The position numbers and the translations under genes were made by a program. From assembly GCF_035083965.1 (NCBI RefSeq), contig NC_089738.1, positions 14,968,734-15,032,733 on the forward strand: a stretch of 64,000 nucleotides of DNA. The letters are read 5' to 3'. How positions within the stretch are numbered: the stretch's first letter is position 1; the number at the start of each line of letters is the position of its first letter. Source of the DNA: Branchiostoma lanceolatum. Its lineage: Eukaryota > Chordata > Leptocardii > Amphioxiformes > Branchiostomatidae. The notes under the pieces are model-generated. The model saw only the letters and a program-made list of their open reading frames with translations. It searched no databases and had not been told where the DNA came from. Positions 14,201-17,200 of the stretch are shown one piece after another.

Positions 14201-17200
14201 TTCTAGCTGCAGGGGATACACCTGTGTATGCAACCAACTGAAAAATCCTTTATCTGTGCCACTGATTCAACGCTTGATAAGAGTCCTAATGTTTTAACTG
14301 TTTGTTTGTATCATAATACTCTTGATGTTGATTTCTATTCGTCCTCACTACATATAGACATTGAAACTATGTCATCAACACATACAACTTATTAAACCCC
14401 TTGTCTGACGAATAGCCATTATTTGACGGCAACAGGGAAAAAATCACACAGCTCAGTGGAGCAAAAATTCTTTAGAAAATATAAACAAGGGAAAAATCCT
14501 GCACACTCCTGACTAACTTAGAAAAACAACTGATGATCGTTTTAAGCACTTGATTGATTAGTGAAAAACATTTCTTTACATGCACTGTGACAGTCCAGTG
14601 AGCAGAAAATAGTTGACCTTAACTTCAATGACGAGCGGCCGCTAGGACAAATGTTAGACCAAATGTTTCTCTTATTAAGCGGTTGAATAAAGGCATGACA
14701 ACATAGACTTTGTACAGCTCTACCTACCACTATAGTCTGACAAACAGTACCAGCTGTGGTTTTCTCTTCTCAAAAGTCTGATTTAAATCCTATCAGTAAT
14801 CTGGCATCTTCTTCAGAGGATTGTAACTTTAAAAAGTGCATACAGTAGAATCCAGCTATTTGCATTACTGTTAAGCAAATATACAAATGTAACTGCCTCC
14901 TTTGTCAGTACTGGACAACCAGTACGGAAGTGGTCGTCAGAACAGGAGCTCCAGTACTGAGACTTTCTCAGTACTGGACTACCTGTACTGGGCAGCTTCA
15001 GTACTGGGAACCCTCCTGTCAGGACGGGAAACCGAGCGCTGAGACTCTAACGAGCGACTAACGTTATTTTCAGGGCTGCATCTCTTCGATGCTTTTTCCC
15101 CCACTTCTAAGCTATTGTTTGGAAAAAGTTCGAATGAAGAAAAAAAATACAGTATCACATTCTGTTACGTTTCAAAGACGACAACATATCCTTGTGCCTT
15201 GTGCCTTTATCGGGAGAAAACGTGCACTGAAATAATAATGTACTTTATATTCAAATACCTACCAAAATCTATGTCCATAACCAAGGCACAAAGCAGTACT
15301 ACCTAAACGTTAGTATGTACAAGCATTAAAATATACAGACAACTAAATCCAAAACTGTCCAGTCGGTCCAAACAATGGATCATCCCAGTACCGTATAGAA
15401 CGTGAGTACAGGACGCCCAGTTCCGAAATAATTTGAGGTCTCGGCTTCCAGTACTGAAGAGTCACTATTTACTGGTAAATCCAGTACGGAACCCGCTACA
15501 TCCGTAAATCGGCACTCGGTTATCCAGTGCTGAATGACCTCCGCACTGGGTAACCAGTACCGAATGATCTTTGAAGTAGCCGGAACGCAAATCCGTACTG
15601 GAACCCGAGTACCGAGAGGATTTCAGCTCTGGAATCCGAGTACCGAAACAAATTCAGTTCTGGACGTCCAGTGCTGACGGAGCTTCGGTACTGGAATAAA
15701 GCCGTTCCGTACTGGAATTCTTGTACGGAACTTCCTTCCGTACTGGGGGCCGAGTATCGGCGCCATTTTCTCCACGGGTTCCGTACTGGGCGCCCAGTAA
15801 GGAGCCGGTTACATCTGTATATTTGCTACTGTTAATAAAATTCCGAAACCCCAAACCATTTCCCATTCACTCCATTATAGATAAAATGGCATAATTGCAT
15901 TAGCCATTTTCGATGCTCCTACTATTTGCAACAGGAAAAACAGGTTGAACATGTCAAACTCTTATGGATCGTATGCAAATGTCATTCAAATGTAAATTGA
16001 GTATGGATAGTTTCTATGGTAAGACAACACCATAGGAGCTGTTAGGGTTTTGAAAAAGCTGTAGCGACTCTTGCCGTGATAGGATACAGAAAATATAATT
16101 GCCAAAGTTTGCCATCCTTTGCACTCAACATGTGTAAATAAACTGATGATATGCTATGAATTCAATATGTTACATTTTGTATGACCTGGGAGTGAGTGAA
16201 TTTGACATAAAGTGTGTGTGTTTCGTTCCAGTGTCATCCTAGTAACTACAACAGGGGGCCTCCCTCAGTGCCGCTCATTTTGTCCCCTAGGGTTAATGGA
16301 CTACTCCTTATAATTGCATAAAATACACAGACAACTCAGTTATGCAAATAAGCGGAGTCTACTGTACTTACACCATGGTAACCAGCTGTCACACATCCTG
16401 GATTATTTTTTCTTTGTCAACAAACTGTAAATCTATATTAACGGCCACACAGCTAGCGCAGCCTTAAGCCTTCCCTGCTGCCTAACCCTGTAAGCAATAG
16501 GAAATTGCAATTGGGTGCCAAACAGCTACTTCAGAAGTTCAGTGTGCTAAAGGTTATAAAGACAGAGTACAGAACTTGGCAATGCCCACAAAGGGTATCA
16601 GGGGTAAGGGACATTTATAGAGTATAGCTCAAATCAAAGTGCAGCCGCAAAGCGATAGGACCGAAAGTTCCAGAAGAATGAAGAGTTCAATGGCTTCCCG
16701 GCTTGGACAATATACTGTCTGAAATTTGTCTGCAAAGCACGGTGTTCCTTCAGACATTTGAACTTGAAGGTTGTCCCACAACAAGGGACCCGTCTTGGCC
16801 TTGACCTCAACCGACCGACCTGAGGGGGGCATGTCGGCGGCATCGGCATTCTACTATCGTTCAGTTACAAATTTGATTCAAAACATTGCAATCGCGGGGC
16901 AAGCTGAGTATACAGCTTTATCCACTGCTACTGCAACCCGGACGTCCCTCAGATACGAACGTCCTCGTCTTAATCTCCGAGGCGCCCTTTGTTATGCAGC
17001 AGTCAGGAGTGTTCTAGCCCTCGGCGCAAAGTACACATCGCCCCGCCCACGACACTGCCACGAACCGTACGCGTACACAGAGGAAGAACGGTCCTGGTTG
17101 CAAACCGTTCCATACGCTACACCTGCTACTACCACGGTAAGTGCAGACTAATTTGATGATCTGTGCAGAAGATAAGAGAGTGTTGGCTTCTTCACGTTTC

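Follow-up and report, generated by a model that had tools for sequence, protein, structure and literature searches.

A non-autonomous DNA element with arms of a 31-bp dyad unit in amphioxus, probably of Mutator/Foldback type

The window, i.e. the whole 64-kb stretch of amphioxus DNA that was analysed, holds 126 open reading frames (ORFs) of at least 85 aa and, among these, 22 of at least 150 aa. Pieces of an F-box and SPRY gene, probably of the FBXO45 type, are located at positions 17860–19992, beginning about 2 kb from the element described below, with a further SPRY-like ORF recognised by eye at 19735–19992. An MSL2-type CXC domain is encoded by the ORF at 29336–30016 and a polycystin domain by the ORF at 60077–60913. 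This gene content has the appearance of animal DNA. Tandemly repeated DNA is found at two places. At 22308–23175, a minisatellite with a 40-bp unit (16.2 copies) lies beside an 87-bp unit (1.9 copies), and one minus-strand frame of this region is open for 208 aa. A 57-bp unit forms an array of 4.2 copies with 90% matches at 63658–63895.

A 952-bp element extends from position 14875 to position 15826 (Table 1). These boundaries and this length had been proposed in the initial annotation and are borne out by the sequence and by the positions of the target-site duplication, the 9-bp word TACTGTTAA, which had been called exact and is present in identical form on both sides. The imperfect inverted ends assigned to the element are likewise found: over 28 bp, the left end GCAAATATACAAATGTAACTGCCTCCTT agrees with the reverse complement of the right end at 25 bases. 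Embedded in the left inverted repeat is the 4+2+4 palindrome TACA-AA-TGTA at element positions 8–17, and the right inverted repeat carries TACA-GA-TGTA at the same place. The palindrome is thus situated inwards of the terminus proper and may have arisen by chance.

Table 1. Position, strand and supporting evidence of the parts of the element within the window.
Feature	Position	Strand	Evidence
Left target-site duplication, TACTGTTAA	14866..14874	+	exact copy at 15827-15835
Left terminal inverted repeat, 28 bp	14875..14902	+	25/28 match with right end
Left repeat arm, about 149 bp, GC 0.54	about 14900..15048	+	half-site hits, folding
AT-rich centre, 333 bp, GC 0.37	15049..15381	.	2 weak motif hits, no 31-bp periodicity
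Right repeat arm, about 423 bp, GC 0.52	about 15382..15804	+	degenerate 31-bp dyad unit
Right terminal inverted repeat, 28 bp	15799..15826	-	25/28 match with left end
Right target-site duplication, TACTGTTAA	15827..15835	+	exact copy of left one

The window was scanned for exact 9-bp direct repeats, 200–4000 bp apart, around inverted 20-mers matching at 14 or more of 20 positions; words present more than 40 times were skipped. Two structures were returned, of which the present element scores 18/20 and the other one (48158–50337) 14/20, the left end of the latter being located inside a listed tandem repeat. The present element is the only clean structure of this kind in the scan. Moreover, the 19-bp end word occurs in the window exactly twice, at the two element ends, where 0.04 occurrences are expected, and with up to 3 mismatches allowed no occurrence in the window was detected beyond these two. 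A chance or composite structure in place of a single mobile element is conceivable insofar as only one copy is at hand. However, given the frequency of the end word, the exact duplication lying flush with both ends and the outcome of the scan, we regard this explanation as extremely unlikely. What is seen at this locus is a real, well-bounded element of ordinary kind.

As the duplication is bounded by T and A, which can pair with each other, a second reading is possible, in which the duplication is 7 bp long (ACTGTTA) and the inverted ends reach 29 nt by one extra base each. Duplications measure 7 bp in Galileo and 8 bp in P elements. If 7 bp were the true length, the element could be a Galileo-like member of the P superfamily, with ends one base longer and with arms composed of THAP-domain sites. 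The sequence allows the 29-nt ends, and the ends of Galileo are indeed long, internally repetitive and Foldback-like and contain several THAP sites (PMC3688188). However, the repeat that is exact comprises 9 bp, and the 7-bp reading needs two extra chance matches (about 1 in 16), which makes a Galileo-like origin quite unlikely.

Translation of the element in all six frames, with stops read as X, revealed no Pfam family above the cut-off. The element is therefore considered to be non-autonomous, in line with the initial annotation. As to a transposase remnant, none was found in the element; a match to Anoct_dimer remained below the cut-off (E 0.048, 14 bits vs 22) and was discounted. A Pfam scan that took 10 of the 22 window ORFs of at least 150 aa detected no transposase among these ten, and a transposase may be encoded elsewhere in the window, among the ORFs outside the 10 scanned.

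The interior of the element is rich in the tetramer GTAC, which occurs 22 times, where a stretch of 952 bp of the window holds 3.7 on average and, among the counts listed away from the element, 10 at most. A half-site matrix of 14 positions, trained on the element itself, yields 32 hits inside the element out of 89 in the whole window, while in letter-shuffled versions of the element (50 shuffles) the average is 1.1 hits and the maximum 3. The dense repeat array reported for this element thus stands far above background. The same account had let the array fill the whole interior, which is too strong, because the hits sit in two arms and leave the centre nearly free. The 333 bp of the centre, out of 952, contain just 2 of the 32 matrix hits, with weak scores of 7.8 and 10.2 bits, and 3 of the 22 GTAC tetramers lie there as well; in addition, the self-match of the centre at lag 31 is not raised (reached by 409 of 500 shuffles). 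In the left arm, half-site cores are located at 14908, 14922, 14940, 14954, 14971, 14985, 15001, 15022 and 15036. Comparison of the element and of its centre with the rest of the window by blastn gave four short and weak matches of 16–21 bp (E 0.06–0.74).

The spacing of the half-sites was compared with 5000 random placements that kept a minimum spacing of 12 bp, using 31 of the 32 matrix hits (the hit at 15224 was left out). Half-sites are found exactly 14 bp apart in 11 cases, where 3.1 are expected, and 30–32 bp apart in 15 cases, where 5.0 are expected, and neither number was reached in any of the 5000 placements. The class of 16–18 bp, taken alone, is not significant (9 vs 6.2 expected; 717 of 5000 placements). 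Orientation was assessed by sign flips over the 12 bases flanking each 4-bp core, with the qualification that pairs share sites and are not independent of each other. Pairs at 14 bp match better in inverted orientation in 10 of 11 cases, with 1 tie (44 of 20000 sign flips), and pairs at 30–32 bp match better in direct orientation in 12 of 15 cases, with 1 inverted and 2 ties (37 of 20000). At 16–18 bp only a trend is visible, the inverted match being better in 6 of 9 pairs and the direct one in 2, with 1 tie (2050 of 20000). Inverted matches at 14 bp in combination with direct matches at 30–32 bp therefore define a 31-bp unit: a half-site of the type TTCNGTACTGGA is followed 14 bp on by its inverse, of the type CCNGTACNGAA, and the pair repeats at about 31 bp. 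The strand labels assigned by the matrix do not alternate cleanly between half-sites, because the word is nearly palindromic.

The consensus of 17 such units, picked by eye from both arms, is ACTTCAGTACTGGAAACCCAGTACTGAAACA and reads nearly the same on both strands. With a matrix built from these 17 units, 14 of them score at least 20 bits and the other 3 score 8.6–10.3 bits; outside the element, 12 hits in the window reach 8 bits, the best of them 15.4. The period is also apparent in the right arm when no matrix is used. Here, lag 31 gives the strongest self-match (0.408; 0 of 500 shuffles), a value above anything seen at any lag in 200 shuffles, but no rise is visible at lags 62 and 93 (93 and 497 of 500 shuffles, respectively). 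The left arm gives no more than a hint of lag 31 (30 of 500 shuffles), and its best lag does not surpass that of the best shuffle. Order in the array thus holds between neighbouring units, and the register shifts over longer distances. Its earlier characterisation as irregular accordingly describes the long range, as seen at lags 62 and 93, and fails for the short range, where the spacings of 14 and 31 bp prevail.

Folding of single strands, compared with dinucleotide shuffles, agrees with what the dyads predict for the arms. The right-end piece (15375–15826) forms a more stable fold than any of its 100 shuffles (z −6.95), and so does the left arm compared with 200 (z −5.26), and three right-arm pieces, two of them overlapping, give z values of −2.49, −3.20 and −4.14. 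Two pieces of the centre, which cover 15049–15348, fold no better than their shuffles (z −0.04 and −0.12). What sets the element apart from the ordinary is its alternating dyad unit alone.

Arrays of this kind could also arise if a simple MITE captured a host minisatellite or grew around it, in which case the repeats would be irrelevant to transposition. The arrays are degenerate and shift in register, as would be expected of a minisatellite that drifts, and the ends of Foldback elements can trade repeats with satellite DNA, as exemplified by Tetris of Drosophila virilis, an apparently non-autonomous Foldback-type element whose end repeats of about 220 bp seeded satellite DNA (PMC4079207). However, the repeats adjoin both ends and are nearly absent from the middle of the element, which is the distribution expected of subterminal binding arrays, and no high-scoring unit is present elsewhere in the 64 kb (best 15.4 bits). 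An origin from a minisatellite is thus very unlikely. Tetris resembles the present element in being non-autonomous and in carrying repeats in its ends; it differs by its satellite expansion, none of which is seen in the window. The suggestion that the array might act as a satellite seed finds a precedent in Tetris (PMC4079207) and no counterpart in the window, where the best unit outside the element scores 15.4 bits, compared to at least 20 for 14 of the 17 units inside.

The element is best explained as a Mutator-like DNA element (MULE) that moves by cut and paste, is non-autonomous and has ends of the Foldback type, an assignment that we hold with reasonable confidence. MULEs generate duplications of 8–11 bp, and a survey gives inverted ends of 14–500 bp (PMC6446971). 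The exact duplication of 9 bp, observed in one copy and also open to the 7-bp reading, falls within this range and is best accounted for by a Mutator-type source, as had been suggested at the outset. The inverted ends, with 25 of 28 bases matching, are of suitable length too, and the arms beyond them are similar in kind and unaligned. In arthropods, MULE ends mostly measure 20–95 bp and mostly start with G or C within the first three bases (PMC13359780); the ends of the present element measure 28 bp and start with GCA. Finally, the ends are composite, i.e. a terminal motif is followed by subterminal repeats of the 12–15-bp class, here half-sites spaced by about 14 and 17 bp in arms of unequal length.

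Merlin elements produce duplications of 8–9 bp and hAT elements duplications of 8 bp, and the ends of both start differently from those of the present element. An origin from one of these or from a similar superfamily with 8–9-bp duplications, with subterminal repeats acquired by chance, is nevertheless worth considering, as subterminal repeats are known from hAT elements too, being named for Ds in the abstract of a study on Ac/Ds (PMC3260210). However, the combination of composite repeat arms with 9-bp duplications is documented for MULEs (PMC5225508, PMC3169594), and an assignment outside the MULEs to Merlin, hAT or the like is therefore unlikely.

Among the MULEs, the plan of the element is most closely paralleled by Tm1 of root-knot nematodes and by families of Aedes. 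Tm1 belongs to the Phantom subclass of Mutator/Foldback elements and comprises MITE-like members as well as others with a gene for a MULE transposase of the Phantom type (PMC3169594). Of 53 complete Tm1 elements, 45 are flanked by duplications of 8–10 bp, most often 9 bp, and their ends consist of a terminal motif followed by 1–9 units of a 13–15-bp repeat, the number of which differs between the two ends (PMC3169594). The present element shares with Tm1 the 9-bp duplication, the short terminal motif, the subterminal array and the unequal repeat numbers; moreover, some members of Tm1 are devoid of coding potential, one of them with a length of 1080 bp (PMC3169594). Differences concern the known transposase-bearing member of Tm1 (PMC3169594), the terminal motifs, which by eye are unlike each other (CGGTTAA/CCTACCC in Tm1 and GCAAATATAC in the present element), and the arrangement of the repeats. 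Both in Tm1 and in Muta1 these are described as tandem, whereas the half-sites of the present element alternate in orientation.

In Aedes, 10 of 12 MULE families with long terminal inverted repeats carry subterminal tandem repeats of 9–15 bp (PMC5225508). Muta1 of Aedes aegypti, which has been called a type 2 Foldback element, makes duplications of 8–9 bp and bears a 10-bp imperfect palindrome at its terminus, with the fifth and sixth bases unpaired, followed by nine 12-bp repeats separated by spacers of 3–4 bp (PMC5225508). Its derivatives vary in repeat number, and most of them share only the ends, their centres being mostly unrelated (PMC5225508). Muta1 and Muta5 resemble the present element in the terminal motif with subterminal repeats of 12–15 bp and in the 8–9-bp duplications, and they have given rise to many non-autonomous derivatives with variable centres (PMC5225508). 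The alternating spacings of 14 and 17 bp average 15.5 bp, compared to 15–16 bp in Muta1. A palindrome of the 4+2+4 type is common to both, possibly by chance, and is placed terminally in Muta1 and at positions 8–17 in the present element. The inverted ends of Muta1 and Muta5 span 145 and 151 bp and contain nine repeats apiece, in contrast to 28 clean bp and arms of about 149 and about 423 bp here.

The Foldback element (FB) of Drosophila has 9-bp duplications and a 31-bp subrepeat. Like the present element, FB and Galileo have long, internally repetitive ends (PMC3688188). The transposase of Galileo is of the P type, which sets it apart from the MULE reading favoured here (PMC3688188). Because Foldback-type ends also occur together with other transposases, as in Galileo, the plan of the ends is no proof of the superfamily. 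Duplications of 9 bp are further known from Rehavkus, a group listed from arthropods and annelids with a PHD-finger transposase, inverted ends of 26–400 bp and a minisatellite that precedes the 3′ end only (PMC6446971). Rehavkus and the present element have the 9-bp duplication and inverted ends of this size range in common and differ in that the minisatellite of the former adjoins one end and the repeats of the latter are found at both. Taken by analogy with these systems, the element works like a Mutator/Foldback element and is probably a MULE; it is not filed as a member of Tm1, Muta1 or Rehavkus.

It is plausible that the repeats of the arms represent putative transposase-binding sites. 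Footprinting placed a DNA-binding domain of the Galileo transposase on one site, and the tandem repeats of the long Galileo ends were found to contain additional ones; according to the same authors, binding to the repeats of Foldback and Phantom elements was untested at the time of writing (PMC3688188). From these parallels we infer a mechanism in which a MULE transposase acts in trans on many half-sites and then cuts at the ends. An intact relative elsewhere in the genome would supply the transposase, and its DNA-binding domain would contact the half-sites of the arms, probably as pairs on each dyad. The large number of weak sites per end would raise occupancy and add specificity beyond that of one short word. 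Cleavage would then take place at the GCAAATATAC ends, and insertion would proceed through a 9-bp staggered cut. Slippage or unequal exchange between units would cause arm length to vary, and the centre would be spare DNA, either taken up or left behind after loss of the transposase gene.

Beyond this, the arms could represent a distinct end architecture, in which near-palindromes of 31 bp, each with two half-sites 14 bp apart, would serve for loading of transposase dimers along both arms and for assembly of a multimeric end complex. We consider this possible but doubtful. If it held, the end complex would be of a kind that is not described in the available text on the tandem-repeat MULEs Tm1 and Muta1. 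Owing to the near-palindromic nature of each unit, the enzyme would then see little difference between the arms, and these could undergo recombination or inversion internally without harm. Should the dyad be confirmed as a transposase site, it would offer a test of why many degenerate sites are kept, with cooperative dimer loading and specificity by number as the two options.

In a search for relatives, the exact end word matched one locus in IMG/VR (viral_contigs) and one contig of a Salinivirgaceae genome. Neither displays a hit of the 31-bp unit or, by eye, an adjoining repeat, and we attribute both matches to chance. In the IMG/VR viral contigs, no match was obtained with either of two forms of the dyad unit. 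Kinship with Tm1 by way of the common 7-base word TTCAGTA was dropped, as the word is present at 2 places in the element and at 10 in the rest of the window. On the half-site matrix, the Tm1 repeat scores 1.72 bits, a value reached by 4343 of 20000 shuffles and by 3054 of 20000 random 15-mers. No sequence relationship with Tm1 was found. Among the matches listed from open-licence papers, the element is not named, and names specific to amphioxus returned none. The initial annotation knew of no described family with this pattern; a lack of described counterparts is not supported, since Tm1 and the Aedes MULEs have the same plan in the published descriptions available (PMC3169594, PMC5225508). 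The repeat-arm pattern therefore has published counterparts in animals, and the element probably stands for one more family among those animal MULEs whose ends are repetitive and Foldback-like.

Two regions upstream of the element display inverted symmetry of their own. Palindromes of the type ACTGTACAGTACTG form a small cluster at 7215–7380, where by eye two diverged copies lie about 100 bp apart. The palindrome cluster at about 6683–7380 was considered as a relative of the element and rejected, as it is built from a different word and is devoid of the end word. At 8104–8370, a long inverted repeat with arms of 70 nt (91% complementary), adjoining long TA and AG repeats, encloses inner inverted repeats of 41 nt (100%) and 32 nt (88%) and looks like a hairpin-type miniature element.
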